Shown here: piece by piece, positions 1,141 through 62,668 of the stretch
How positions within the stretch are numbered: the stretch's first letter is position 1
How the letters are laid out: every line of letters starts with the position of its first letter
Notes under the pieces: model-generated
Told to the model about the DNA's origin: nothing
Database searches by the model: none
What the model saw: only the letters and a program-made list of their open reading frames with translations
DNA from: Sphingomonas sp. SORGH_AS_0879
Lineage (GTDB): Bacteria > Pseudomonadota > Alphaproteobacteria > Sphingomonadales > Sphingomonadaceae
Direction: 5' to 3'
Assembly (NCBI RefSeq): GCF_030819175.1
Contig: NZ_JAUTBJ010000002.1
Coordinates: 1,188,001-1,252,000 of the forward strand
DNA length: 64,000 nt
Made by a program: the position numbers and the translations under genes

Positions 1141-2097
1141 TCAAGCGCCGCTTTCGTCGAGTCGCCCAATCTGTTCCTTGGTTAGCGTCAGGGTCATGGC
1201 GGGCATCAGTTCGGACAATTGTTCGACACCGGTCGCACTGGCGATCGGTGCCGTCACACCGTCCTGCGCCATCAGCCAGGCTAGGGCCACCTGCGCCTGC
1301 GTCGCGCCGGTTTCCTCCGCCACCTGGTCCAGCGCGGCGAGGACCTCCGCGCCCTTGCCACGCAGCAACTCGCCCATCCTGCCGCCGCGCACGCTTTGCG
1401 ACAGGTCGGCCTCGTTGCGATATTTGCCGGTCAGGAAGCCGGCGGCGAGGCCATAATAGGGCACGACGCCGATATTCTCGGTGATGCAGTAATCCTGAAG
1501 CTCGCCTTCGAACTTGTGACGGCTGACCAGATTATATTCGGGTTGCAGGACGTGGAAGCGCGGCAGTCCGGCGTCGCGCGCGGCCTCGTTGGCGGATTTC
1601 AGCCGTGCGGCATGGAAGTTGGACGCACCGATGACGCGGACCTTGCCCGCCTCGACCAGTTTGGCGAAGGCTTCCATCACCGCCTCCTGCGGCTGATCCT
1701 CGTCATCCTGATGCGCGAAATACAGGTCGATCCGGTCGGTGCCGAGCCGCCGGAGCGACGCCTCCGCCGCCGCCGCGATCCGGGCGGGGGCCAGCTTCTC
1801 GCCGCCTTCGCCCGGCAGCATCCCGACCTTGGTGGCGATCAGCACCTGCTCGCGCTTGCCGCTGGTCTTCAACCATTCGCCGATCATCGTCTCGGACTCG
1901 CCGCCCTGATGGCCGTCCACCCAGGCGGAATAGACGTCCGCCGTGTCGATCATCGTGCCGCCCTGGTCGACGAACGCGTCGAGCACCGCGAAGCTGGCCG
2001 CCCGGTCGGCGGTCCAGCCGAACACATTGCCGCCCAGCACCAGCGGCGCGATCATCAGGTCGGTCGAGCCCAGGCGGCGAAGCGGCGTGTCGGTCAT
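1141..2097 (-). CDS. Aldo/keto reductase
   Basis: A 318-residue NADPH-dependent aldo/keto reductase of the YajO/YdjG type, with a cytosolic TIM barrel. The catalytic tetrad is visible: D51 and Y56 in DTADVY, K90 in IATKVGM and H129 in LYFAHQ. The C-terminal cofactor region includes PIASATGVEQL. Full length with no signal peptide. The substrate cannot be named from sequence; such enzymes reduce sugar aldehydes or other carbonyls. It is followed by a small lipoprotein on the same strand, with only a few bases between them. Confidence 0.92.
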   Translation of the reverse strand: MTDTPLRRLGSTDLMIAPLVLGGNVFGWTADRAASFAVLDAFVDQGGTMIDTADVYSAWVDGHQGGESETMIGEWLKTSGKREQVLIATKVGMLPGEGGEKLAPARIAAAAEASLRRLGTDRIDLYFAHQDDEDQPQEAVMEAFAKLVEAGKVRVIGASNFHAARLKSANEAARDAGLPRFHVLQPEYNLVSRHKFEGELQDYCITENIGVVPYYGLAAGFLTGKYRNEADLSQSVRGGRMGELLRGKGAEVLAALDQVAEETGATQAQVALAWLMAQDGVTAPIASATGVEQLSELMPAMTLTLTKEQIGRLDESGA

Positions 2098-3494: not shown

Positions 3495-4661
3495 CTAAAG
3501 CGATAGTAGCGTCCACTTCTCATCGGCCTGGGCATTGGCCAATACCGCCTCGACAAAGGCCATGGTGCGCAGGCCGGATTCCAGGCCGGGGAACCAGGTC
3601 GCCTCGCCCAATGCGCCGCCCTCCGCTGAGCCGCCATCGCGCAAGTTTCCCGCGACCGCGCGGTAGAGGTTGCCGAACGCCTCGATATAGCCCTCCGGAT
3701 GGCCCGAGGGGGTGCGCAGTCGTGGCAGGGTGGTCCCGGACAGGCCGGGGCCGCCCGCCCGCACGATCTCCGCGGGACGGTCGAGCCAGCGCAGAGTGAG
3801 CGTGTTGGGCTCCATCTGCGACCATTCCAATCCGCCCTTCTCGCCGTGAATGCGCAGGCGCAGGCCGTTCTCCTCGCCCGCCGCCACCTGCGTCGCGCGC
3901 AACGTGCCGCGCGCGCCCTCGGCAAAGCGGAGCAGGACGTTGACATCGTCGTCCAGCATTCGCCCCGGAACATGGGTGGTCACGTCCGCCGACAAGGCCT
4001 CGACCGTCAGGCCGGAGACATGCTCGGCAAGCTGGAAGGCGTGGGTGCCGATATCGCCCAACGCGCCGCCCAGCCCCGCGCGGGCGGGATCGGTGCGCCA
4101 TTCGGCCTGCTTGTTGCCCTCGCGGTCGAGCGGGCTGCTGAGCCAGCCCTGGACATATTCGACATGGACCAGCCGGATCGCCCCAAAGTCGCCGCGTGCG
4201 ATGCGGGCGCGGGCCTCCTCGACCATGGGATAGCCGCTATAGGTGAAGGCGAGGGCATAGAGTTGGCCGGATGCGCGTGCGGCATCCGCAATGGCCTTGG
4301 CTTCGGCGAGGTTCATCGCCATCGGCTTTTCGCTGAACACCGGAAAGCCCGCGTTCAGCGCGGCGATCGCCATCGGCGCGTGGAGGTGATTGGGGGTAAC
4401 GATCGCCACCGCGTCGATCCGCTCCCCCTCGGGTCGGGCGCGTTCGTCGGCGAGCAGCGCCTCGATCGAGGCGTGGACCCGGTCGGGGGAGAGGCCGAGC
4501 GATTCCCCGCTGCGTCGGTTGCGCTCCGCATCGCTGCTGAACGTCCCCGCGACCAGTTGCCAGTCGCCGTCCAGCGCCGCCGCCATCCGGTGCACGCCGC
4601 CGATAAACGCGCCTTCGCCACCGCCCGCCATCGCCAGTTTCAGCTTGCGTCCCGCCATCAT
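3495..4661 (-). CDS. Gfo/Idh/MocA-family oxidoreductase
   Basis: About 388 residues. The N-terminal Rossmann region has a glycine-rich turn (MAGGGEGAFIGG, residues 11-22), then the family motif EKP at 111-113 and a GDIGTHAF motif at 202-209 near the active site. These enzymes oxidise or reduce sugar hydroxyls with tightly bound NAD(P); some reshape 3-keto sugars. No signal peptide, so cytosolic. It is transcribed away from the cytochrome c operon, with a LacI-type palindrome between them, and is probably part of the same regulon. The second ATG (4658) is better spaced from GAGGAG. Confidence 0.9.
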   Translation of the reverse strand: MMAGRKLKLAMAGGGEGAFIGGVHRMAAALDGDWQLVAGTFSSDAERNRRSGESLGLSPDRVHASIEALLADERARPEGERIDAVAIVTPNHLHAPMAIAALNAGFPVFSEKPMAMNLAEAKAIADAARASGQLYALAFTYSGYPMVEEARARIARGDFGAIRLVHVEYVQGWLSSPLDREGNKQAEWRTDPARAGLGGALGDIGTHAFQLAEHVSGLTVEALSADVTTHVPGRMLDDDVNVLLRFAEGARGTLRATQVAAGEENGLRLRIHGEKGGLEWSQMEPNTLTLRWLDRPAEIVRAGGPGLSGTTLPRLRTPSGHPEGYIEAFGNLYRAVAGNLRDGGSAEGGALGEATWFPGLESGLRTMAFVEAVLANAQADEKWTLLSL

Positions 4662-4715
4662 CCACTCCTCTCGTCCGTCGCTCGATCGGCGACATTCCCT
4701 GCTTGCACCGAAGCG

Positions 4716-4729
4716 GTTTACCGGTAAAC
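4716..4729. promoter_or_regulatory. Perfect 14-bp palindrome, probable LacI-family operator
   Basis: GTTTACCGGTAAAC is fully self-complementary with a central CG, the shape typical of LacI/GalR-family operators. It lies 54 bases upstream of the divergent oxidoreductase start (4661) and 49 bases upstream of the cytochrome c start (4779). A LacI-type regulator closes the island at 12493. Binding is inferred, not shown. Confidence 0.65.
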
Positions 4730-4778
4730 TCGCCCGTGAACCAGCGAGTCTGGGAAAGAAAATGACAGGAGAGAGAGA

Positions 4779-5168
4779 ATGAGGCAGCTATTTTGGCTGG
4801 CCGCATTGCCGGGTGCCGTGGCGCTTGTCGTGGCCGCGAATGCGCCATCGACGGCCCAGTCCGCCCCCGCCGCCGGGGCGCAGGCCTTCGCCGCCTGTCG
4901 CGCCTGCCATACGCTCAACAAGGGTGGCCGCAACGGCGTCGGCCCCAATCTGAACGGCGTGTTCGGTCGGCAGGCCGGGACGGTTCCGGGCTTCAACTAT
5001 TCGCCCGCGATGAAGGCGTCCGGGTTGAAATGGGATGACAAGACGCTGGGTGAGTTCATCGCCGCGCCGATGAAGAAGGTGCCGGGCACGCGGATGCCGA
5101 TCGGCGTTGCCGACCCCGCCAAGCGCGCCGCGCTGATCGCATATCTCAAGGCCGAGACCGCCAAATGA
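4779..5168 (+). CDS. Periplasmic class I cytochrome c
   Basis: 129 residues with an N-terminal Sec signal (MRQLFWLAALPGAVALVVAA). One haem site, C40-R-A-C43-H44, is followed by the class I pattern GPNLNGVFGR and a likely methionine ligand M106 in GTRMPIGV. A single-haem electron carrier. Its position first in a sugar dehydrogenase operon suggests it accepts electrons from the GMC flavoprotein encoded downstream at 10782 and passes them to the respiratory chain. The stop overlaps the next start (ATGA at 5165). Confidence 0.93.
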   Translation: MRQLFWLAALPGAVALVVAANAPSTAQSAPAAGAQAFAACRACHTLNKGGRNGVGPNLNGVFGRQAGTVPGFNYSPAMKASGLKWDDKTLGEFIAAPMKKVPGTRMPIGVADPAKRAALIAYLKAETAK

Positions 5169-6220
5169 GCGCGGGCGCGATGCGCGGACCGAGCATTTTC
5201 CTGGCCCAGTTCATGGGCGACGCCGCGCCGTTCGACACGCTGGATTCGGCGGCGCGCTGGATGGCGGAGGCGGGCTATGAGGGCGTGCAGATCCCGACCT
5301 GGGACGCGCGCTGCATCGACCTGAAACTCGCCGCCGAGAGCCAGGATTATTGCGACGATCTGGCCGGGCGTTGCGCCGATGCCGGGGTGGCGATCACCGA
5401 ATTGTCGACCCATTTGCAGGGTCAGTTGGTCGCGGTCCATCCGGCCTATGACGCGGCGTTCGACGGCTTTGCGCCCGAAGCGGTGCGAGGCAAGCCCGCC
5501 GAGCGACAGCAATGGGCGGTCGGGCAACTCCTTTACGCCGCCAGGGCGAGTCGGCGGCTGGGGTTGAAGGCGCACGCGACCTTCTCCGGCGCGCTGCTCT
5601 GGCCTTTCGTCTATCCCTGGCCGCAGCGGCCCGGCGGTCTGGTCGCGGAAGGCTTCGCCGAACTCGGCAAGCGCTGGCGACCGATCCTTGATGCGTTCGA
5701 GGAAGAGGGCGTCGACCTTTGCTACGAACTCCATCCGGGGGAGGATCTGCACGACGGCACGACCTTCGAGCGGTTCCTGGACGCGGTCGGCGGCCATGCC
5801 CGCGCCAACATCCTCTACGACCCCAGCCATTTCGTGTTGCAGGCGATGGACTATCTCCAGTTCATCGATTTCTACCACGACCGCATCCGCATGTTCCACG
5901 TCAAGGATGCCGAGTTCAACCCGACCGGCCGCGCGGGTGTCTATGGCAGTTACAGTGAATGGATCGACCGGCCCGGACGATTCCGCTCGCTGGGCGACGG
6001 GCAGGTCGATTTCGGCGGCATCTTCTCGAAGCTGACCCAATATGGCTATGCCGGTTGGGCGGTGCTGGAATGGGAATGCTGCCTGAAGCACCCGGAGGAC
6101 GGCGCGCGCGAAGGGGCGCCCTTCATCGCCGCGCACATGATCCGCCGGGCGGAACGCGCCTTTGACGACTTCGCCGGTGGGGGCGATCCGGCCGCCAACA
6201 GGCACTGGCTGGGACTTTAA
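5165..6220 (+). CDS. Sugar phosphate isomerase/epimerase-like TIM-barrel protein (1 of 3)
   Basis: 351 residues of the AP-endonuclease-2-like TIM-barrel superfamily. Candidate metal ligands sit in CYELHPGEDL, YDPSHFV, FHVKDAEF and VLEWEC, the E-D-H-E spacing used by xylose-isomerase-like enzymes. No signal peptide, so cytosolic, unlike the two paralogues at 7590 and 9921. Substrate not determinable; the island points to a keto sugar or 3-keto glycoside. It is translationally coupled to the cytochrome by a 4-base overlap. Confidence 0.88.
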   Translation: MSAGAMRGPSIFLAQFMGDAAPFDTLDSAARWMAEAGYEGVQIPTWDARCIDLKLAAESQDYCDDLAGRCADAGVAITELSTHLQGQLVAVHPAYDAAFDGFAPEAVRGKPAERQQWAVGQLLYAARASRRLGLKAHATFSGALLWPFVYPWPQRPGGLVAEGFAELGKRWRPILDAFEEEGVDLCYELHPGEDLHDGTTFERFLDAVGGHARANILYDPSHFVLQAMDYLQFIDFYHDRIRMFHVKDAEFNPTGRAGVYGSYSEWIDRPGRFRSLGDGQVDFGGIFSKLTQYGYAGWAVLEWECCLKHPEDGAREGAPFIAAHMIRRAERAFDDFAGGGDPAANRHWLGL

Positions 6221-6288
6221 GATGGCATAGGCTTGACCATCCGCCCCGGAGAGTAAAGCCTGACAAAAAATACAGACGGGAGAGGGGC

Positions 6289-7593
6289 ATGGAAGCGATA
6301 CCGGGCAATCGGTCGCGGCTGTTCTGGCTGAGCGTGCTGGCGCTGTTTACGGCGGCGGCAAGCGCGGCCTTGCGCGCGGCGGTGGCGAGCAGCCTGAAGG
6401 TGGAGTGGATCGATCCCATCGCGCCGGTCGAAGCGGGCGAGTTGATCGGATCGGCGCTGGGTTCGGCCTTTCTGGGCTTTGCCGCGACCTTGTTCGTGGC
6501 GAGCGCGCTGCTCGACCGGATCGGTGCGCGGCGGATGCTGATCGGCTGCGGCCTGTGTTTCCTGATCGGAACGGCGGCGATCATCGGGGCAGGCCAGGTC
6601 GCCACCGGCATGGCGGTCTATCACATCGTCTGGGGCGGGATGCTCCTGAGCGGGATCGGCTGGGGGCTGGCGGAGGCGTCGATCAACCCGCTGACCGCGC
6701 GGCTTTACCCGGAAGAGACGACTCACCGACTGAACGTCCTCCATGCCTGGTATCCCGGCGGGCTGATCGTCGGCGGGCTGGCGGGCGTGTTGCTGGCCGA
6801 ACTCCTGTCATGGCAGGCGATCATGGCGCTGGTGCTGATCCCGGCGCTGGGCGTGCTGGTGATGGCGGCGACCACGCATTTCCCGCCGGTCCCGCGCGAA
6901 GTCCGTGACGTCGGTTTCGGCGGCATGATCGCGGAGGTGTTCAAGCGCCCCAGCTTCTTCGTATGGTTCGGCGCGATGTTCCTGACCGCCGCGTCCGAAC
7001 TGGCACCCGGCCAGTGGCTCGACGTGGCGCTCAGCAGCCGGGTGGGCATGCGCGGCATTCTCCTCCTCGTCTATGTCAGCGCGCTGATGTTCGTGTTCCG
7101 CCATTTCGCCGGGCGGATCGCGGGGCGGCTGTCCAATCCGGGGCTACTCTGGGTGTCGAGCCTGATGGCGGGGATCGGCCTGTTCCTGCTGTCGCGGGCA
7201 CAGTCGCCGGTGGCGGCGATCCTGGCTTCGACCGTCTGGGGGCTGGGCGTCTGCGCGATGTGGCCGACCATGCTCGCCTCGGTCGCCGAGCGTTATCCGC
7301 GCGGCGGGGCCTGGGCGCTGGGACTGGTCGGATCGGCGGGGGCGCTCGCCAGCTTCTTCGTGCTGCCCCGGCTGGGCGCGATGTTCGACGCCGCCAAGGT
7401 CGAACTGGCCGGTGGACCGGAGGCGTTCAAGCGGCTGACCGGTGAGGCGCTGCGTCAGGTCGAGGATGCGGCGGCGTCGCAGTCCTTCGCCCGGCTGGCG
7501 CTGGTGCCGGTGATCCTGTTGTTCGTCTTCGGCGGTATCTGGCTGGCCGAGCGCCGCCGTCCCCGTCCCCAAGTCGCGGAGACTGTCGCATGA
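6289..7593 (+). CDS. MFS transporter, probable sugar permease
   Basis: 434 residues with about 12 hydrophobic helices and the MFS pattern of two six-helix halves. The first half includes LLDRIGARRMLIGCG between helices 2 and 3, a basic loop resembling MFS motif A; the second half includes RHFAGRIAGRLSNPG. The start at 6289 has GGGAGAGGGG just upstream. The C-terminal tail is basic (ERRRPRP). From its place it probably imports the sugar or keto sugar handled by the island. It ends in ATGA, the start of the next gene. Confidence 0.88.
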   Translation: MEAIPGNRSRLFWLSVLALFTAAASAALRAAVASSLKVEWIDPIAPVEAGELIGSALGSAFLGFAATLFVASALLDRIGARRMLIGCGLCFLIGTAAIIGAGQVATGMAVYHIVWGGMLLSGIGWGLAEASINPLTARLYPEETTHRLNVLHAWYPGGLIVGGLAGVLLAELLSWQAIMALVLIPALGVLVMAATTHFPPVPREVRDVGFGGMIAEVFKRPSFFVWFGAMFLTAASELAPGQWLDVALSSRVGMRGILLLVYVSALMFVFRHFAGRIAGRLSNPGLLWVSSLMAGIGLFLLSRAQSPVAAILASTVWGLGVCAMWPTMLASVAERYPRGGAWALGLVGSAGALASFFVLPRLGAMFDAAKVELAGGPEAFKRLTGEALRQVEDAAASQSFARLALVPVILLFVFGGIWLAERRRPRPQVAETVA

Positions 7594-8510
7594 ACTGGTC
7601 GCGTCGCACCGTCATTGGCGGGCTCGCCGCCGCCGCACCCGTCGCGGCCTTGGCGGGGCAGAAGGCGGGCAGATCGTCCAACGCCGCGCGCTTTGCCCTG
7701 GGCTTCGCGCCGCATCTGGGCAGCTTCGCCAGCCGGGGGGAGAGTTCGGTCGAACAGATCGCCTATGCCGCGGATCAGGGTTTCTGGGCGTGGGAGGACA
7801 ATGAATATCGCCTCCGCCCCGTCGCGGAGCAGGAGGCGATCGCCAAGGCCTTGCGCGACCGGAAGATGACGATGGGCGTGTTCGTCGCCTCCATGCCCAA
7901 ATGGTCGGAATCGCGCCCCTTGCTCGGCGGCGATGACGATGCCGAGCGGCAGGCTTTTCTCGCCGATATCCGCAGCGCGGTCGATGTCGCCAAGCGGGTC
8001 GGGGCCAGGCATATGACCGTCGTCACCGGCTTCATGGACAAGAAGCTGCATCCCGCGATTCAGCAGGGGCGGATCATCGACCTGATGCGCCGCGCGGGCG
8101 ATATCGTCGCGCCGCACGGGATGACGCTGGTGATGGAGCCGCTCAACACCCGGACCAACCATCCGGGCGTGTTCATGCAGTCGATCGCGGAAGGCTATGC
8201 GGTGGCGCGCGGGGCGAACAGTCCGGGCGTGAAGGTGCTCGCCGACCTCTATCACGAGCAGATCCAGTCGGGGAATCTGATCCCGACGATGACGCTGTGC
8301 TGGGACGAGATCGGCTATATCCAGTTCGGCGACAATCCGGGCCGAAACGAGCCGGGCAGCGGCGAGGTCAACTATGCCAATGTCTGCCGCTTCCTGAAGG
8401 AGCGCCGCTATGCCGGGGTGATCGGCATGGAGCATGGCAATTCGGTCAAGGGCCGGGCGGGCGAAGAAAAGCTGATCGCGGCATACCGCGCGATCGATCC
8501 GACAGCATGA
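7590..8510 (+). CDS. Tat-exported TIM-barrel isomerase-like protein (2 of 3)
   Basis: 306 residues. The N-terminus NWSRRTVIGGLAAAAPVAAL is a twin-arginine type signal, so a folded, metal-loaded protein is probably exported to the periplasm. The body is a hydroxypyruvate-isomerase-like TIM barrel with candidate ligands in VMEPLNTR, ADLYHEQ, GDNPGRNEPG and GMEHGNS. Coupled to the transporter by a 4-base overlap. In this setting it may cleave or isomerise 3-keto glycosides; that is inference. Confidence 0.87.
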   Translation: MNWSRRTVIGGLAAAAPVAALAGQKAGRSSNAARFALGFAPHLGSFASRGESSVEQIAYAADQGFWAWEDNEYRLRPVAEQEAIAKALRDRKMTMGVFVASMPKWSESRPLLGGDDDAERQAFLADIRSAVDVAKRVGARHMTVVTGFMDKKLHPAIQQGRIIDLMRRAGDIVAPHGMTLVMEPLNTRTNHPGVFMQSIAEGYAVARGANSPGVKVLADLYHEQIQSGNLIPTMTLCWDEIGYIQFGDNPGRNEPGSGEVNYANVCRFLKERRYAGVIGMEHGNSVKGRAGEEKLIAAYRAIDPTA

Positions 8511-8521
8511 GGAGGGGAGCG

Positions 8522-9337
8522 ATGCGGGCATTTCCATTGATCGCGTTGGTCATGGCGAGTGGTGCCACGGCGCAGGACAAGCCGGGCCTGGGGTTCCGCG
8601 ACACGCCGATGCTGCCCGGCGGCCAATGGCATGTTCATGACCCAGACCGGCCCGCACCCAAGGTGGTGACTCCGTCCGCGCAACCCGGCGGTGCGCCGTC
8701 CGACGCGGTGGTGCTGTTCGACGGACGCTCGATGGATGCCTGGACGCCCAGCGGCAAGCCATGGCTGCTCCAGAACGGGGTGATGACCGTGCCGCCGCGC
8801 GACGGCAAGGGCGAGAGCCTGTTGGTCAGCAAGCAGAGCTTCGGCGATGTCCAGATGCATCTCGAATTCCGCTCGCCCAACCCGCCGCGGAAGAGTTCGC
8901 AGGATCGCGGTAATAGCGGCATCTGGTTCATGCAGCGCTATGAGGTGCAGATCCTCGACGGCTATGACAACCCGACCTATGCCGATGGGCAGGTGGGGGC
9001 GGTCTATGCCTGGAAGCCGCCGCTGGTGAATGCGGCGCGAAAGCCCGGCGAGTGGCAGAGCTATGACATCATCTTCGAGCGGCCCCGCTTCGTCGCCGAT
9101 GGCAAGCTGCTGCGGCCCGCTTATGTCACCGCTCTGCTGAACGGCGTGGTGGTGCAGAACCACCAGGCGATGCTCGGCACCACCATCTGGCGGCAGGTGG
9201 AGAAATACCAGGCGCATGGCGATGCCGCGCCGATCCAGCTTCAGGATCACGACTCGCCCGTTTCGTTCCGCAATATCTGGGTCCGCCCGCTGCCGCCCGA
9301 GGCGATCGCGCAGGACCTGCCGGAGGATGCCCGATGA
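8522..9337 (+). CDS. DUF1080 protein, 3-keto-disaccharide hydrolase family
   Basis: 271 residues from the ATG at 8522, which is preceded by AGGAGGGG. A Sec signal (MRAFPLIALVMASGATAQ) targets it to the periplasm. The body is the jelly-roll fold of DUF1080: VVLFDGRSMDAW, then FGDVQMHLEFRSP, RGNSGIWFMQRYEVQILD and DSPVSFRNIWVRPL. Relatives hydrolyse 3-keto glycosides and 3-keto disaccharides. This fits the adjacent dehydrogenase parts well. An ATG at 8507 would overlap the upstream stop but lacks the ribosome site. It overlaps the next gene by ATGA. Confidence 0.9.
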   Translation: MRAFPLIALVMASGATAQDKPGLGFRDTPMLPGGQWHVHDPDRPAPKVVTPSAQPGGAPSDAVVLFDGRSMDAWTPSGKPWLLQNGVMTVPPRDGKGESLLVSKQSFGDVQMHLEFRSPNPPRKSSQDRGNSGIWFMQRYEVQILDGYDNPTYADGQVGAVYAWKPPLVNAARKPGEWQSYDIIFERPRFVADGKLLRPAYVTALLNGVVVQNHQAMLGTTIWRQVEKYQAHGDAAPIQLQDHDSPVSFRNIWVRPLPPEAIAQDLPEDAR

Positions 9338-9924
9338 TCGCCCACCCCCATATCGACCGCAGACACGCCCTGGCGGGGATCACCGCCATGTTCGGCTCCG
9401 CGCTGTTCGCCCCCATCGCCCGTGCGGCGGGTGCGGTCGAGCAGACGCGAGGGAGCATCCCCGTCATCTCCGACGGCCCGCCCAGCGTCGCCGTCTTCAC
9501 CCCGACCCAGCGCGCGACGATGGTCGCCCTGTCGGAGCGGGTGATCCCGACCACCGACACGCCCGGCGCGATCGCGGCCAAGGTGCCCGAGTTCATCGAG
9601 AAAATGCTCGCCGACTGGTCGCTGCCCGAAGACCGGGTGCCGATCATCGCCGGGTTGAACGCGATCGAGGCGCGAAGCCAGAGCGTCAACCGCACCCCCG
9701 CCGCCAAGGCGACGCCCGCGCAACAGGACACGCTGCTGACCGAGGCGATGGAGGGCGTCCTGCCCGAAGGCCGCGCCTTTTTCGAGCCGTTCCGGCAACT
9801 GGTCATCACCGGCTATTACACGTCGGAGATCGGCATCACGCAGGAGCGCGAATATCTGCCCGTGCCCGGCGAATATAATGGTGCCTTCCCCTATTCTCAG
9901 GTCAACAAGGTGTATTCGGCATGA
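9334..9924 (+). CDS. Gluconate 2-dehydrogenase subunit 3-like small subunit, Tat signal
   Basis: 196 residues. DRRHALAGITAMFGSALFAPIARA is a twin-arginine signal. The mature part matches the small (gamma) subunit of membrane sugar dehydrogenases: FTPTQRATMVALSERVIPTTDTPGA and, at the end, YTSEIGITQERE and YLPVPGEYNGAFPY. Such subunits carry the signal-less GMC flavoprotein through the Tat pathway by piggy-back and stabilise it. The partner is very likely the GMC protein at 10782. Overlaps its neighbours by 4 bases on both sides. Confidence 0.9.
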   Translation: MIAHPHIDRRHALAGITAMFGSALFAPIARAAGAVEQTRGSIPVISDGPPSVAVFTPTQRATMVALSERVIPTTDTPGAIAAKVPEFIEKMLADWSLPEDRVPIIAGLNAIEARSQSVNRTPAAKATPAQQDTLLTEAMEGVLPEGRAFFEPFRQLVITGYYTSEIGITQEREYLPVPGEYNGAFPYSQVNKVYSA

Positions 9925-10757
9925 TCGATCGGCGTTCGCTCATGGGGGCTGGCCTTGGCCTTGGCGCGGCGGCGCTGGTGCCGGGTCGCGCACAGGCCGC
10001 GCAACTCGGGGCCATCGGGTTGCAACTCTATACGATCCGCGAGCTGTTCTCCGCCGATCCGGTCAAGACCTTGGAGGCGGTGGCGAAGATTGGTTACCGC
10101 GAGATCGAATATGGCGGTGGCGGCTATGATGCGATGGACCATGCCATGCTTCGCCGCACGCAGGACCGGCTGGGGCTGAAAGCGCCATCGGTTCATATCG
10201 GTTACGACGCGCTGCTTGGCGATTTCGACAAATGCGTGACGATGGCCAAGACGCTGGGCGCGGATACGGTCGTGCTGCCCTATATGACCGACGAGCATCG
10301 GACGGAGGCGGGCTGGAACGCGGCGCTGCCCAATTTCAACCGCTTCGCCGAGGGGCTGAAGAAGGCTGGTCTCGGCTTCGCCTATCACAATCACGATTTC
10401 GAGTTCACCAACAAGCCGGGCGGCGTCAGCCTCTATGAGCGGTTGCTCAAGGGCACCGACCCGGCGCTCGTGAAGCTGGAGATCGACCTCTATTGGGCGA
10501 TCCATGCGGGCGAGGATGCGGCGGCGCTGATCCGGCGGCTGGCCGGGCTGCGGATTTACGCTTACCACGTCAAGGATGCGCGCGCCGACGGCAGCATGAC
10601 CGCGGTGGGCGCGGGCCGGATCGACTTCGCCGCGCTCTTCAAGTTGAACAGGCTGGCGGGCGTGAAGCATTTCTATGTCGAGAATGATCAGGCGCCCGCG
10701 CCCTATCTGCCCGACATCACGACCAGTTTCCGGACGCTGCGCGCCTTGCGCTTTTAA
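9921..10757 (+). CDS. Tat-exported TIM-barrel isomerase-like protein (3 of 3)
   Basis: 278 residues. DRRSLMGAGLGLGAAALVPG is a twin-arginine signal ending near AQA. The barrel carries IGLQLYTIRELF, GYREIEYGGGGYD, YHNHDFEF, KLEIDLYWA, YHVKDAR and FYVEND, giving candidate E/D/H metal ligands. This is the sugar phosphate isomerase/epimerase family, but with a periplasmic location a phosphorylated substrate is unlikely, so a keto sugar or glycoside is more probable. Starts in the ATGA overlap with the small subunit gene. Confidence 0.88.
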   Translation: MIDRRSLMGAGLGLGAAALVPGRAQAAQLGAIGLQLYTIRELFSADPVKTLEAVAKIGYREIEYGGGGYDAMDHAMLRRTQDRLGLKAPSVHIGYDALLGDFDKCVTMAKTLGADTVVLPYMTDEHRTEAGWNAALPNFNRFAEGLKKAGLGFAYHNHDFEFTNKPGGVSLYERLLKGTDPALVKLEIDLYWAIHAGEDAAALIRRLAGLRIYAYHVKDARADGSMTAVGAGRIDFAALFKLNRLAGVKHFYVENDQAPAPYLPDITTSFRTLRALRF

Positions 10758-10781
10758 GAAAACGATAAAGGGAGGATAGCC

Positions 10782-12464
10782 ATGGCGGCGACGAACCGTT
10801 TCGACGCGATCGTGATCGGGTCGGGTATCAGCGGCGGTTTCGCCGCCAAGGAACTGACCGAAAAGGGCCTGCGTGTCCTGATGCTCGACCGGGGCGTCAT
10901 GGTGGAGCATGGCGAGGGCTATCCCTATGACGGCAAGCCGCCGTTCGAGGTGCCCGCGCGCAACATCATGCCCAAGCCTTTGGTGGAGAGCGACTATTTC
11001 ATCGCGAAATATGGCTATGTCGCGCCCAGCAACCAGAAATTCTACAATGACGACCGGCTGAACCCCTATGCCTATGACGAGGGGAGCAAATTCTACTGGA
11101 TCCGGCCCGGCGCGGTGGGCGGCAAGTCGCTGATCTGGGGCCGCTGGTCCTTCCGCTGGAGCCCGGACGATTTCGAGGCGAACAAGCGCGAGGGCGTCGC
11201 CGCCGACTGGCCGATCCGCTACGACGATGTCGCGCCCTGGTACTCGTACGTCGAGAAATATATCGGCGTGTCGGGCTCGCGCGAGAATCTGCCCTATCTG
11301 CCCGACAGCGAATTCCAGCCGCCGATCCCGATGAACGTGGCGGAGAAATGGTTGAAGGAACGGCTGGAGGGCCAGTTTCCGGGGCGCAAGCTGATCCACA
11401 CCCGCCTGTCCAACATGACCGAGGACAAGCCCGACCAGAACCGCACCAAATGCCAGTTCCGTAACCAGTGCGGCAATGGCTGTTCCTTCGGGGCCTATTT
11501 CTCGACCCAGGCGGTGACGCTGCCCGCCGCGCGCGCGACCGGGCGGCTGACGCTCCAGTCGGATGCGGTGGTGACGGGGATCGATTACGATCCTGCCAAG
11601 AAGAAGGTCACCGGCGTCCGCTATATCGACGCGAGGACGGGGCAGGCACAGACGGTGGCGGCGAACCTGGTCTTCGTCTGTGCCTCGGCCATGGCGTCGG
11701 TGCAGATCCTGATGAACTCGCGCGCGCCGGGCTCGGAGCGGAGCCATTTCGACTCGAGCGGAACATTGGGTCGTTACGTCATGGACCATATCTTCCGCGT
11801 CGGCGTGTCCGGCGAGATTCCGGGCATGGACGACCTGATCGAATATGGCCGCCGTCCGGGCGGGGTCTATGTGCCGCGCTTTCGCAATCTGAAGGGCGAC
11901 GAAGGGCTGGGGTTCAAGCGCGGCTATGGCTATCAGGGGTCTGCCTATCGCAACGCCGCCAAGCCGGTCGGCTTCGGCGCGGAGATGAAGCACGGGATGC
12001 GCCGCTATGGCCCATGGCAGTTCAGCATGGGCGCGTTCGGCGAGTGCCTGCCCTATGAAGACAATCGCATCTCACTCCACAGCAGCAAGGCCGATCGTTT
12101 CGGGGTGCCGTTGCTGAAGTTCGACGTCACCTTCCGCGACAATGAGCTGAAGATGATGGCCGATGCCCGGCGCGAGGGCGAGGCGATGCTGCGCGCGGCG
12201 GGGCTGAAGAACGTGACCAGCGGCGAGCAGGAGCATGTGCCCGGCGACGCGATCCATGAAATGGGCGGCGCGCGCATGGGCGCGGACCCGCGCCAGTCGG
12301 TGCTCAACAAATGGAGCCAGGCGCATGACGCCTCCAACCTCTATGTCACCGATGGCGCACAGATGGCGTCGGTGTCGTGCGTCAACCCGTCGCTGACCTT
12401 CATGGCGCTGACCGCGCGTGCGGCCGATCATGCGGTCAAGGGGTTGAAGGCGGGGGCGGTCTGA
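10782..12464 (+). CDS. GMC-family FAD sugar dehydrogenase, catalytic subunit
   Basis: 560 residues. The FAD-binding motif GSGISGG (13-19) opens the protein. Later come GRWSFRWSPDDFE, an iron-sulfur-like cysteine cluster region QFRNQCGNGC, HEMGGARMG with the active-site histidine region, and the C-terminal NPSLTFMALTARAA. This is the pattern of membrane gluconate or glucoside 3-dehydrogenase large subunits. No signal peptide, consistent with Tat piggy-back on the 9334 product. Preceded by AAGGGAGG. Electrons probably go to the cytochrome c at 4779. Glucoside C3 oxidation is inferred from the neighbouring DUF1080 protein. Confidence 0.92.
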   Translation: MAATNRFDAIVIGSGISGGFAAKELTEKGLRVLMLDRGVMVEHGEGYPYDGKPPFEVPARNIMPKPLVESDYFIAKYGYVAPSNQKFYNDDRLNPYAYDEGSKFYWIRPGAVGGKSLIWGRWSFRWSPDDFEANKREGVAADWPIRYDDVAPWYSYVEKYIGVSGSRENLPYLPDSEFQPPIPMNVAEKWLKERLEGQFPGRKLIHTRLSNMTEDKPDQNRTKCQFRNQCGNGCSFGAYFSTQAVTLPAARATGRLTLQSDAVVTGIDYDPAKKKVTGVRYIDARTGQAQTVAANLVFVCASAMASVQILMNSRAPGSERSHFDSSGTLGRYVMDHIFRVGVSGEIPGMDDLIEYGRRPGGVYVPRFRNLKGDEGLGFKRGYGYQGSAYRNAAKPVGFGAEMKHGMRRYGPWQFSMGAFGECLPYEDNRISLHSSKADRFGVPLLKFDVTFRDNELKMMADARREGEAMLRAAGLKNVTSGEQEHVPGDAIHEMGGARMGADPRQSVLNKWSQAHDASNLYVTDGAQMASVSCVNPSLTFMALTARAADHAVKGLKAGAV

Positions 12465-12492
12465 CGCGCGGTTCGACGGGTGGTGGCGGGTG

Positions 12493-13542
12493 ATGGAAAA
12501 GCCCGCTACCGCATCCCCCGCCATGACCATCCGCAAGCCCGAAGGCGTCACCATCCGCGCGGTCGCCGAGCGTGCGGGTGTGTCGGCGATGACCGTGTCC
12601 AACGTCATCAACGGCACGGGCAAGGTCGGTCCCGTGACCCGCGCGACGGTGCTCGCGGCGATCGAGGAACTGGGATACCGGCCCAATATCGCCGCGCGGC
12701 GACTGGCCAAGGCGCGGGCGACGACGCTGGGGCTGGTCTATAGCGACCGGCGGACGCCGTTCATCGACTCGGTGTTGCTCGGCGCATTGCGCGCGACCAA
12801 TGCGCGGGGCCTGCAATTCATCGCCCAGGCTGAGGAAGGGCTGACCCGCGAGGCGGCGGAAGCGGCGGTGCGCGCGCTGGTGCAGAGCGGCGCGGCGGCG
12901 GTGCTCCTCGTCCCGCCCTTTGCCGAATTGCTCAGCGGGTCGGGGCTGTTCGAAAAACTGGGCGTCGCGGCGGCGGCGATCGCGACGGGGCGGGGGCTGC
13001 CCGACATCTCGACCGTGCGGGTCGACAACCGCGTGGCGATGGCGGCGATGACAGCGCATGTCGTGGACCGGGGGCATCGCCGCATCGGCTTTCTGGCGGG
13101 GCCGACCAGCTTTTCCGTCGCGGACGAGCGGCTGGCCGGGTTTCGCGAGGGCATGGCGGCGAATGGATTGCCGGTCGATCCCGCGCTGGTCATTCGGGGC
13201 GGTTTCGACCCGGCTTCGGGCGCGGAGGCTGGGCGTGCCCTGTTGTCGCTCCCCGACCGGCCGACCGCGATTCTGTGCAGCAGCGACGACATGGCCGCCG
13301 GATTGATCGGCGAGGCGCATCGTATGGGGCTGCGACTGCCGCAGGATCTGGCGGTGACGGGGTTCGACGATACCGCGATCGCGGCGCGACTCTGGCCACC
13401 GCTGACGGTGATCCGCCAGCCGGTCGGCGACATGGCGTTTCGCGCGGTCGAGCAGGTGCTGGCCAGCCTGCGGTCGCGGCAAGTGGAGGACCGCGTGGTG
13501 GAATTTGAGCTGGTCACCCGGGAGTCCGTGGCGGGGGGGTAG
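12493..13542 (+). CDS. LacI-family transcriptional regulator
   Basis: 349 residues. The N-terminal helix-turn-helix VTIRAVAERAGVSAMTVSNV (about 17-36) and the hinge helix NIAARRLAKARA are clear. A periplasmic-binding-protein-like sugar sensor domain follows, with FDDTAIAARLWPPLT and RQP near the end. It probably represses the island until a sugar or derivative binds; its likely operator is the palindrome at 4716. The start is ambiguous: GTG at 12490, ATG at 12493 and a downstream ATG at 12523 are all in frame. Last gene of the run. Confidence 0.9.
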   Translation: MEKPATASPAMTIRKPEGVTIRAVAERAGVSAMTVSNVINGTGKVGPVTRATVLAAIEELGYRPNIAARRLAKARATTLGLVYSDRRTPFIDSVLLGALRATNARGLQFIAQAEEGLTREAAEAAVRALVQSGAAAVLLVPPFAELLSGSGLFEKLGVAAAAIATGRGLPDISTVRVDNRVAMAAMTAHVVDRGHRRIGFLAGPTSFSVADERLAGFREGMAANGLPVDPALVIRGGFDPASGAEAGRALLSLPDRPTAILCSSDDMAAGLIGEAHRMGLRLPQDLAVTGFDDTAIAARLWPPLTVIRQPVGDMAFRAVEQVLASLRSRQVEDRVVEFELVTRESVAGG

Positions 13543-13678: not shown

Positions 13679-14704
13679 TCACCCCATCCGCCCATATTCC
13701 GCGACCAGCGCCACCTGGTCCGCATCGCCCAACACCACGCCGACCCGCTGGTGCAGGCCGATCGCCTCCACGTCCATGATCCGGATCGCGCCATCGATCG
13801 ACGCGCCGCCCGCCTGTTCGATCAGGAAGCTCATCGGGTTCGCTTCGTACAACAGCCGCAACTTGGCCTTGCCCGGCTGGCGGTGGTCGCCGGGGTAGAG
13901 GAACACGCCGCCCCGCTTCAGGATACGGTGGATGTCCGCCACCATCGAGGCGGTCCAGCGCATATTGTAATCCTCGCCGCACGGACCCTCGGTCCCCAGA
14001 ATCCGCTCTTCGATATAGCGCGCGATGCCGGGCGACCATTGGCGGCGGCGGGCCATGTTGATCGCGAATTCGCGCGTCCCCGCCGGGATGCGCATCGGCC
14101 CGTCGGTCAGCCGCCACGATCCCAGTTCGCGGTCGAGGGTGAATTCATACACCCCCTCGCCGACGGTCAGTACCAGCAAGGTCTGCGGCCCATAGATCGC
14201 ATAGCCCGCCGCGACTTGCGCCCGACCGGGCTGGAGGAAGTCCGCCTCGGTCACCTCGCGGCCCGCGCAATCCTCCGGCGCGCGAAGCACCGAGAAGATC
14301 GTGCCGACCGACAGGTCGACATCGACATTGCTCGACCCGTCGATGGGATCGAACAGCAACAGATATTCGCCCCTGGGATAGCGGTTGGGGATGCGGTGGA
14401 TCGTCTCCATCTCCTCCGACGCCATCGCCGCCAAGTGTCCGCCCCATTCATTGGCGTCGAGCAGCAGGTCGTTGGCGATCACATCCAGCTTCTTCTGGAC
14501 CTCGCCCTGCACATTCTCGCTGCCCAGACTGCCCAGCACATCGCCCAGCGCGCCCTTGGAAATCGCCTGGTTCACCGCCTTGCACGCCCGCGCGACCGTC
14601 TCGATCAGCAGGCGGAGTTCGGGCGGGCAGGTTTCCGGCGATCGGCGTTGCTGCTCGATCAGGAAACGCGTCAAGGTCGTCTGGCGCGGGGTGATCATCG
14701 TCAT
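13679..14704 (-). CDS. fbp: Fructose-1,6-bisphosphatase class 1
   Basis: 341 residues, the normal length. It removes the 1-phosphate of fructose 1,6-bisphosphate in gluconeogenesis. The metal and substrate motif [20 protein letters not shown] is intact, as are ASEEMET near the N-terminus and the substrate loop GGVFLYPGD, then [23 protein letters not shown] at 14704 has CCGGAG upstream at good spacing. No signal peptide; cytosolic. Convergent with the LacI gene and divergent from the serine acetyltransferase. Confidence 0.97.
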
Positions 14705-59472: not shown

Positions 59473-61371
<1,899 letters not shown>

Positions 61372-61378
61372 GGCCGTC

Positions 61379-61408
61379 GGCCCGGCCTGCCTACGGGTGG
61401 GTCGGGCC
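61379..61408 (+). terminator. Stem-loop between dnaK and dnaJ
   Basis: GGCCCGGCCTGCC-TACG-GGTGGGTCGGGCC with a few G-T pairs; 7 bases after the dnaK stop, followed by TTCGGTTCC. Partial termination could lower dnaJ relative to dnaK. Confidence 0.55.
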
Positions 61409-61537
61409 TTCGGTTCCGATGTGAGAATACCGCCTTTCGGGGCATGAAGTGGCGAAGCGCTTGGGCGATCGCTCCGTCCGGCCTGACGGCATGGTCGGTC
61501 GGCGGGCCACGCACAGGCGGACGGGGCGAGACCGGGC

Positions 61538-62668
61538 ATGAGCACGACGATCGACTATTATGAACTGCTCGAATGCGAGCGCACGGCGGACGATGCGACG
61601 ATCAAGTCGCGTTACCGCAAGCTGGCCATGCAATATCACCCGGATCGCAATGCGGGCTGCAAGGAATCCGAGGCCAAGTTCAAGGCGATCAGCGAAGCCT
61701 ATGACTGTCTGAAAGACCCCCAGAAGCGGGCGGCTTATGACCGTTATGGCCATGCCGCGTTCCAGCAGGGCATGGGCGGCGGCGGTGGCGGCGGCGCGCA
61801 GGATTTCGGCGCCTTTTCCGACATTTTCGAAAGCGTCTTCGGTGAGTTCATGGGCGGGGGACGCGGCGGCGGGCGGCAAAGCCCCCGGCGTGGCGCGGAC
61901 CTGCGCTACGATATGGAGATCACGCTCGAGGAAGCGTTCCACGGCAAGCAGACCGAGATCACGGTCGATGTCTCGGCCACGTGCGACACATGCGACGGCT
62001 CTGGCGCGAAGGCCGGGACCAGTGCCAAGACCTGTCAGCAATGCGGCGGGCACGGCAAGGTGCGCGCGCAGCAGGGCTTCTTCGTGGTCGAGCGGACCTG
62101 CCCGGTCTGTCAGGGCGCGGGCCAGATCATCGCCGATCCCTGTCCCGATTGTCGCGGCGATGGCCGTGTGGAAAAGACCAAGACGCTGGCGGTGAATATC
62201 CCGGCGGGCGTGGACGAAGGCACCCGCATCCGCCTGTCCGGCGAGGGCGAGGCGGGTGCGCGCGGTGCGCCGGCGGGCGACCTCTACATCTTCCTCCATG
62301 TGAAGCGGCACGCGATCTTTGAGCGCGAGGGCACCACCCTGTTCGCGCGCGCGCCGATCAGCTTCACCACGGCGGCGCTGGGCGGCTCGCTGTCCATCCC
62401 CGGCCTCGACGGCCGCACGCACGAGATCAAGATCCCGGCGGGCATCCAGTCGGGCAAGCAACTCCGCCAGCGCGGCGCGGGTATGCCCGTCTTGCAGGGA
62501 CGCGGCACCGGCGATCTGGTCATTCAGATCGAGGTGGAGACCCCGACCCGGTTGTCGACCCGCCAGCGCGAATTGCTCGAACTCTTCCGCGAAACCGAGA
62601 CGGGCGACGAATGCCCCGAGAGCCAGGGCTTCTTCGCCAAGTTGAAGAGTGTCTTCGCGGGGGAGTAA
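61538..62668 (+). CDS. dnaJ: Chaperone DnaJ (Hsp40)
   Basis: 376 residues. J domain with H34-P35-D36, then a glycine/phenylalanine linker ([20 protein letters not shown]), four zinc CxxCxGxG repeats ([32 protein letters not shown]), and the C-terminal substrate domain [20 protein letters not shown]. All motifs intact. Cooperates with DnaK and GrpE. Separate start 166 bases downstream of dnaK. Confidence 0.97.

Follow-up and report, generated by a model that had tools for sequence, protein, structure and literature searches.

The systems closest to the locus described here, a ten-gene island in Sphingomonas sp. SORGH_AS_0879, are gene clusters for 3-keto-glycoside cleavage in Caulobacter and Agrobacterium. 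For Caulobacter, periplasmic hydrolysis of 3-ketolactose by a DUF1080 protein has been proposed (Price 2022, PMC9007349), and fitness data indicate that lacABC, the DUF1080 gene, and the transporter, two epimerase, and reductase genes located upstream of lacB matter for growth on lactose (PMC9007349). The second cleavage route, β-elimination, is that of the GlycDH/AtOGE/AtHYD/Gfo operon of Agrobacterium tumefaciens, for which eliminase activity was shown, along with preliminary evidence for hydration of the keto-glucal by AtHYD and for conversion of the product to glucose by the Gfo reductase of the operon (Bitter 2023, PMC10628242). Oxidation, elimination, hydration, and reduction also make up the levoglucosan LgdA-B1-B2-C pathway, which likewise employs sugar-isomerase-like barrels (Kuritani 2020, PMC7676230; Kaur 2023, PMC10066097).

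The Sphingomonas island spans positions 3495-13542 of the window, by which we mean the whole 64,000-nucleotide stretch analyzed, on contig 2 of a 4.3-Mb genome. It encodes a Gfo/Idh/MocA oxidoreductase (Gfo), a cytochrome c, three TIM-barrel proteins (barrels 1-3), a major facilitator superfamily (MFS) permease, a DUF1080 protein, a small subunit with a twin-arginine translocation (Tat) signal, a GMC flavoprotein, and a LacI regulator. All ten genes are intact. Each gene named in the initial annotation, which had been made from the letters alone, is present as an open frame, and family calls from Pfam and NCBIfam place the products above the Pfam cut-offs for GFO_IDH_MocA, Cytochrom_C, AP_endonuc_2 (three times), MFS_1, 3keto-disac_hyd, Gluconate_2-dh3, GMC_oxred (N and C), and LacI with Peripla_BP_3. 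A search for the same gene set, which that annotation had proposed, recovered the island, complete or partial, from 25 other sphingomonad loci (L004-L014 and L102-L115); with the window these make up the 26 loci counted below, some of which may belong to the same or sister species. We conclude that the gene set is genuine and conserved, that its functions cohere, and that it combines known steps, most of which are covered by the Caulobacter lac cluster (PMC9007349) and the Agrobacterium eliminase operon (PMC10628242).

At Agrobacterium locus L015, which resembles the published operon (PMC10628242), relatives of the hydratase (barrel 1), Gfo, eliminase (barrel 3), GMC, small subunit, and cytochrome genes are consecutive. 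Shared with the island are a GMC protein with a Tat small subunit, a Gfo reductase, a nearby LacI-family gene, an eliminase barrel with a signal-like N terminus, and a hydratase barrel without one. In the main text on that operon (PMC10628242), no word begins with "periplasm". Queries with barrel 2, DUF1080, and MFS found nothing at Agrobacterium loci L015 and L016, and gene order and sequences differ from those of the island, the hydratases being 74-75% identical and the eliminases scoring 87-92 bits. The C. crescentus cluster, compared through its published description, has the same functional set, whereas a third, exported barrel goes unmentioned in the available part of the lactose description (PMC9007349). 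An uncultured Caulobacterales contig (L027) carries relatives of Gfo, the hydratase, MFS, the eliminase, the small subunit, and GMC in a row. The levoglucosan pathway differs in using an NAD-dependent dehydrogenase and ATP-binding cassette (ABC) import in place of the periplasmic GMC complex predicted here (PMC7676230, PMC10066097).

We consider it likely that the island specifies a pathway under LacI control in which glycoside degradation is divided between periplasm and cytoplasm, a reading drawn from gene content, export motifs, active-site residues, conservation, and an operator-regulator correlation, all of which were observed. The catalytic activities, transported species, inducer, and role of barrel 2 given below are predictions. 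In the periplasm, a complex of GMC, Tat subunit, and cytochrome c would oxidize C3 of a glucosyl-type residue, with the small subunit exporting and completing GMC and the cytochrome serving as electron acceptor. Tat-exported barrel 3 would then remove the aglycone or partner sugar by metal-dependent β-elimination to give 2-hydroxy-3-keto-glucal, and DUF1080 would cleave in parallel, probably at other linkages or anomers. After import of the enone or keto sugar by the MFS permease, barrel 1 would hydrate the enone to 3-keto-glucose in the cytoplasm, and the Gfo enzyme would reduce 3-keto-glucose to glucose. Barrel 2, exported with the dehydrogenase, would most likely shift the carbonyl or a stereocenter of the keto-glycoside and thereby keep it a substrate.

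Such an operon would hold both published routes of 3-keto-glycoside cleavage, by DUF1080 and by β-elimination, with the predicted enzymes divided between the two compartments. A transporter that accepts 2-hydroxy-3-keto-glucal or 3-keto-glucose is a further prediction, and the exported enzyme barrel 2 receives a hypothesis that assays can address. What may be new is that both routes occur side by side and are clearly divided between compartments, that regulator and operator are correlated, and that the set includes an exported third barrel. Our literature search, which was light on subscription journals, found no publication on this Sphingomonas island or on an exported Hyi-type barrel.

A predicted LacABC-like oxidation complex

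The genes for a signal-less GMC protein, a Tat-signal Gluconate_2-dh3 small subunit, and a c-type cytochrome stand together in the island, as in a LacABC-type complex. A twin-arginine (RR) motif scan bears out the proposed division of signals: the motif is present in 26 of 26 sphingomonad small subunits and in none of the 26 GMC copies, which fits co-export. Stray RR motifs were flagged in 1 of 24 Gfo, 1 of 23 cytochrome, and 2 of 22 DUF1080 rows; both DUF1080 cases are wrongly framed starts, and the Gfo case (L005) has no hydrophobic stretch behind the motif.

The best solved relatives of the GMC large subunit are the large subunits of fructose and glucose dehydrogenases (133-145 bits). Opposite the catalytic pair of fructose dehydrogenase (FDH), the residues that differ in FDH variants 8k6j and 8xcn, the alignment places His492 and Asn535, which are kept in 50 of 50 and 49 of 50 aligned rows, respectively. 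Cys224, Cys230, and Cys234 align with three FDH cysteines and are present in all 50 rows; we take them to be ligands of a 3Fe-4S cluster, as in the solved enzymes. Predicted C3 oxidation by a LacABC-like periplasmic GMC complex, already suggested in the initial annotation, is well supported.

The same scores against fructose and glucose dehydrogenases would also suit a gluconate, fructose, or alcohol dehydrogenase, which would make the island a generic periplasmic sugar oxidation cluster. We regard this as very unlikely, as relatives of the barrels, DUF1080, and Gfo recur alongside this GMC, and no pathway of C1 or C5 oxidation is known to us in which a 2-hydroxy-3-keto-glucal hydratase is required.

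A second GMC gene (561 bits) paired with a small-subunit gene lies elsewhere in the same genome (L116:8951-11292; C2:3368000-3387900), with distant barrel relatives within 10 kb.

Elimination and hydrolysis as proposed cleavage routes

Barrel 3 is distantly related to AtOGE (PDB 8bvk). In AtOGE the metal is held by His132, Asp163, His189, and, weakly, Glu233; His134 is catalytic, the H134A variant being inactive; and an alternative site is ringed by His132, His66, Glu39, and Glu161 (PMC10628242). The alignment places His66, His132, His134, Glu161, Asp163, His189, and Glu233 of AtOGE opposite His92, His156, His158, Glu187, Asp189, His216, and Glu254 of barrel 3. None of the 49 aligned rows departs from Glu63, His92, His156, His158, Asp189, or His216, and barrel 3 is probably a 3-keto-glycoside β-eliminase.

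All 24 usable sphingomonad copies of barrel 3 carry a Tat motif, the L113 copy having been dropped as out of frame and that of L115 having no assigned start. Outside the sphingomonads, 21 of 24 relatives look exported when their N termini are read by eye (L026, L037, and L060 do not; for L038 and L053 the assigned start falls within the signal). That an exported eliminase might be a sphingomonad specialty was considered and rejected, the Agrobacterium copies having a signal-like N terminus too. The signal-less eliminase-type barrels of L037 and L060 stand near a hydratase-Gfo pair with no GMC hit, possibly a cytoplasmic form of the pathway. In L113 (genome G026; positions 7257-8085 and 11942-12052), the eliminase gene matches as two overlapping pieces and the island hydratase is a 102-bit fragment, which points to a broken or misassembled island.

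The DUF1080 protein scores 138.4 bits against PF06439 (cut-off, 26.8) and 199.7 bits against 4qhz and is the sole PF06439 match in its genome. Its start is probably at 8522. A DUF1080 enzyme can itself carry out elimination and hydration. The Bacteroides lyase mentioned by Kastner 2026 (PMC13273386) is not termed DUF1080 in the available part of that article.

Because barrel 1 matches a hydratase and barrel 3 keeps the eliminase residues of AtOGE, cleavage is probably at least partly β-elimination and not DUF1080 hydrolysis alone. The initial annotation had placed cleavage outside the cytoplasm, which the sequence supports, and had read it as hydrolytic. An alternative of that kind, in which periplasmic hydrolysis of the 3-keto-glycoside falls to DUF1080 while the barrels, as ordinary epimerases, recycle the released keto sugar, would accord with the PF06439 score, with the strong lactose defect of the Caulobacter DUF1080 mutant (PMC9007349), and with PF06439 matches in eight of eight genomes checked. 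It does not accord with barrel 1, however, a hydratase relative that needs keto-glucal made by elimination; nor does it accord with the invariance of the eliminase residues or with the occurrence of barrel 3 in all 26 islands, four of which are missing DUF1080. We consider this alternative improbable. Those four islands were also taken to suggest that DUF1080 is dispensable, an argument weakened by the five PF06439 matches found elsewhere in each of the four genomes (two of the five sit within one long frame).

Proposed hydration, reduction, and uptake

Residues 6-351 of barrel 1 align with residues 4-349 of PDB 8ro4 (604 bits), an entry deposited as a 2-hydroxy-3-keto-glucal hydratase, which we infer to be the Agrobacterium enzyme AtHYD. 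Barrel 1 is thus probably a hydratase of this kind. The initial annotation had left the barrels as undefined isomerases; the match of barrel 1 and the AtOGE residues of barrel 3 supersede that description and suggest that, of three genes annotated as isomerase-like, one probably encodes an eliminase and one a hydratase.

Relatives of barrel 1 were followed in 69 non-sphingomonad loci, taken from the best 80 of at least 594 hydratase relatives; presence was called at bit thresholds that we set, and six of the loci are shorter than 12 kb. No RR motif was found in the 25 sphingomonad copies of barrel 1 with an assigned start, and in the 69 loci the protein starts close to the barrel core, with the exception of three longer N termini (L041, L068, and L071, possibly wrong starts; a stray 25-bit row in L078 was dropped). 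For these two reasons barrel 1 is most likely cytoplasmic.

In 63 of the 69 loci the hydratase gene has a Gfo relative encoded on its own strand no more than 400 bases away, and hosts of the pair include Agrobacterium, Bacteroidota, Gemmatimonadota, an acidobacterial assembly, and Pelagibacteraceae. The island Gfo protein falls below the NCBIfam cut-off for the levoglucosan dehydrogenase LgdA (123.8 versus 650 bits), and we propose that it is a cytoplasmic 3-keto-glucose reductase. The return of the keto sugar to metabolism, as first suggested, is in keeping with these assignments. MFS relatives turn up in 20 of the 69 loci and in seven cases stand no more than 50 bases from the hydratase gene; because of this proximity, we infer that the MFS permease takes up the product, keto-glucal or a 3-keto sugar.

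The hydratase-Gfo pair is also present in SAR11, in the Pelagibacteraceae single-cell genomes L076 and L078. In L076 the pair (L076:9992-12198) adjoins a sugar ABC transporter and a solute-binding protein, which suggests that marine bacteria have a variant of the pathway that begins with import.

Conservation of the gene set

GMC, the small subunit, barrel 2, and barrel 3 are found in all 26 sphingomonad loci, the hydratase in 25 (one a fragment), Gfo in 24, a cytochrome above 100 bits in 24, DUF1080 in 22, and MFS in 18. In L115, DUF1080 (197 bits) stands apart from the rest of the island. The nearest named loci by hydratase are those of Sphingomonas zeae (95%) and S. pseudosanguinis (94%). 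In a survey of 61 genomes, barrel 2 was present in 15, the hydratase in 22, and a close GMC in 16, and all 15 genomes with barrel 2 had both others. Locus L139, outside the 26, has barrel 2, DUF1080, the small subunit, barrel 3, and GMC.

GMC is present in 19 of the 69 non-sphingomonad loci. A barrel 2-type protein accompanies it in 12 of these 19, compared with none of the 50 loci without GMC; the corresponding counts are 13 of 19 and 7 of 50 for a barrel 3-type protein and 5 of 19 and 2 of 50 for DUF1080. In three Mucilaginibacter loci, three barrels accompany DUF1080, GMC, the small subunit, and Gfo; the alteromonads Paraglaciecola and Marisediminitalea have this set too, plus a LacI-family gene. 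Because of these similar sets, the combination is not unique to this genome. The suggestion that three barrels with DUF1080 in one operon might be the new part of the island is not supported, with similar sets in sphingomonads, Mucilaginibacter, and two alteromonads.

Several observations weigh against the pathway as drawn. In two of the 26 islands the hydratase or Gfo is missing or a fragment, MFS is missing from eight, and L139 gave no hit for the hydratase, Gfo, MFS, or cytochrome. The relationship of barrel 3 to AtOGE is distant (87.7 bits), Glu254, opposite the weak ligand Glu233, is outside the list of positions kept in at least 97% of rows, and Glu39 of AtOGE falls outside the stretch aligned with barrel 3. 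DUF1080 proteins could carry most of the cleavage, the eight genomes with PF06439 matches including the four with a DUF1080-less island. Finally, the regiochemistry assigned to GMC rests on context, because other members of the GMC families oxidize other sugar carbons.

LacI and its candidate operator

A perfect 14-base palindrome lies between the divergent Gfo gene and the operon. The pattern with up to two mismatches has one match in the window, against 0.01 expected. With zero to two mismatches and between divergent genes, it occurs in all 10 sphingomonad loci with a LacI orthologue (counted from 377 bits upward) and in none of the 16 that lack one, the 26 loci being related and not independent cases. 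The palindrome is therefore a candidate LacI operator, and its co-occurrence with the LacI orthologue supports the LacI control assumed at the outset. To be set against this is a genome-wide control, in which the pattern read backwards gave as many two-mismatch hits.

The genome holds one perfect copy and one two-mismatch site. A wider LacI regulon was considered and rejected; because the second site falls near the beginning of an unrelated open frame, inside it, and control hits were equal, the regulator is treated as local.

Barrel 2, an exported Hyi-like barrel

Barrel 2 has a Tat RR motif in 24 of 24 sphingomonad copies and is present in all 11 sphingomonad islands that were located through the hydratase. 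Its best NCBIfam models are hydroxypyruvate isomerase and 2-oxo-tetronate isomerase, and it is below the cut-off of both (123.1 versus 353.45 and 113.8 versus 325 bits). A structural model of barrel 2 is a Hyi-like TIM barrel that fits 3ngf and 1k77 best, which we take to be proteins of the Hyi/OtnI kind; the fold comparison does not discriminate the reaction. Among 59 sequences, Glu183, Asp219, and Glu281 are invariant and Gln245 is kept in at least 90%, four positions that presumably form the metal site. The His-Asn-His motif of the eliminase is not among the conserved positions of barrel 2.

Fold and metal-site residues are common to barrel 2, Hyi, OtnI, and the 3-keto-glucoside 4-epimerase YcjR. 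Unlike Hyi and OtnI, barrel 2 is Tat-exported, is tied to a glycoside dehydrogenase, and falls short of both models. We propose that it is a 2-keto/3-keto-glycoside isomerase or a 3-keto epimerase. A fuller version of this proposal, which we advance tentatively and as possible at best, is that barrel 2 restores spontaneously formed 2-keto glycosides (or epimerizes C4, bringing galactosides into the gluco route) while MFS carries the 1,2-unsaturated 3-keto sugar across the inner membrane, and that two Tat-exported Hyi-type clades are independent recruitments. If so, barrel 2 would be an exported keto-glycoside isomerase of a kind undescribed in the literature examined, C3-oxidized glycosides would drift spontaneously to 2-keto forms that the eliminase may not use, and the sphingomonad clade and the Bacteroidota/alteromonad clade, both beside GMC genes, would have recruited the same repair step independently.

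Barrel 2 could instead be a second eliminase or a periplasmic hydratase for another anomer or linkage. Levoglucosan loci do carry extra PF01261 barrels with the eliminase, for which intermediate processing has been proposed (PMC10066097), and LgdB2 has been suggested to perform both elimination and hydration (PMC7676230). The best scores of barrel 2 to isomerase models, its structural fit to 3ngf and 1k77, and the lack of the His-Asn-His motif among its conserved positions all argue against such a role, which we judge doubtful. An isomerase or epimerase remains our proposal.

The Hyi-type barrels of Bacteroidota and alteromonads were considered as orthologues of barrel 2, which is unsupported: they are 19-21% identical to it and form a separate, distant clade (100/100) in the tree of 59 sequences, where long branches meet at that clade and deep placement is unsure. 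The claim is of a recurrence of kind, not of orthology. No GMC, eliminase, or hydratase hit was found in the stretch examined around the alphaproteobacterial barrel 2 relatives of L136-L138 (36-37% identity).

Gene arrangement and neighbors

The Gfo gene diverges from a nine-gene plus-strand operon at 4779 to 13542, whose order is cytochrome c, barrel 1, MFS permease, barrel 2, DUF1080, Tat small subunit, barrel 3, GMC, and LacI. Four-base gene overlaps occur at 5165/5168, 7590/7593, 9334/9337, and 9921/9924. The remaining gaps are 68 bases between hydratase and MFS, 11 before the likely DUF1080 ATG, and two of 24 and 25. A crude frame picker based on GC content by codon position selected nine of the ten island frames and missed DUF1080.

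Table 1. Island features in window coordinates, with predicted roles
Feature	Position	Strand	Basis
Gfo/Idh/MocA oxidoreductase, signal-less	3495..4661	-	PF01408/PF22725; 346 bits to 3v5n
Perfect 14-base palindrome, proposed LacI operator	4716..4729	.	Sequence and correlation with LacI orthologue
Monohaem cytochrome c, N terminus signal-like	4779..5168	+	PF00034, 39.4 bits
Barrel 1, proposed cytoplasmic 2-hydroxy-3-keto-glucal hydratase	5165..6220	+	604 bits to PDB 8ro4
MFS permease, proposed importer of keto-glucal or 3-keto sugar	6289..7593	+	PF07690, 82.4 bits
Barrel 2, Tat-exported hydroxypyruvate-isomerase-like protein	7590..8510	+	
DUF1080/PF06439 3-keto-disaccharide hydrolase family, N terminus signal-like	8522..9337	+	PF06439, 138.4 bits, scored on 8504-9337
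Tat-signal small subunit (Gluconate_2-dh3)	9334..9924	+	PF13618, 116 bits; RR motif
Barrel 3, Tat-exported, proposed AtOGE-like 3-keto-glycoside β-eliminase	9921..10757	+	87.7 bits to 8bvk
Signal-less GMC flavoprotein large subunit, a proposed glycoside 3-dehydrogenase	10782..12464	+	PF00732/PF05199
LacI-family regulator	12490..13542	+	PF00356 and PF13377

Directly downstream of the LacI gene, on the opposite strand, is a fructose-1,6-bisphosphatase gene (13679-14704, minus strand). Roughly 1.4 kb separates the Gfo gene from an aldo/keto reductase gene (1141-2097, minus strand). Toward the window's end, adjacent Hsp70 and DnaJ family genes (59473-62668, plus strand) form an ordinary pair.

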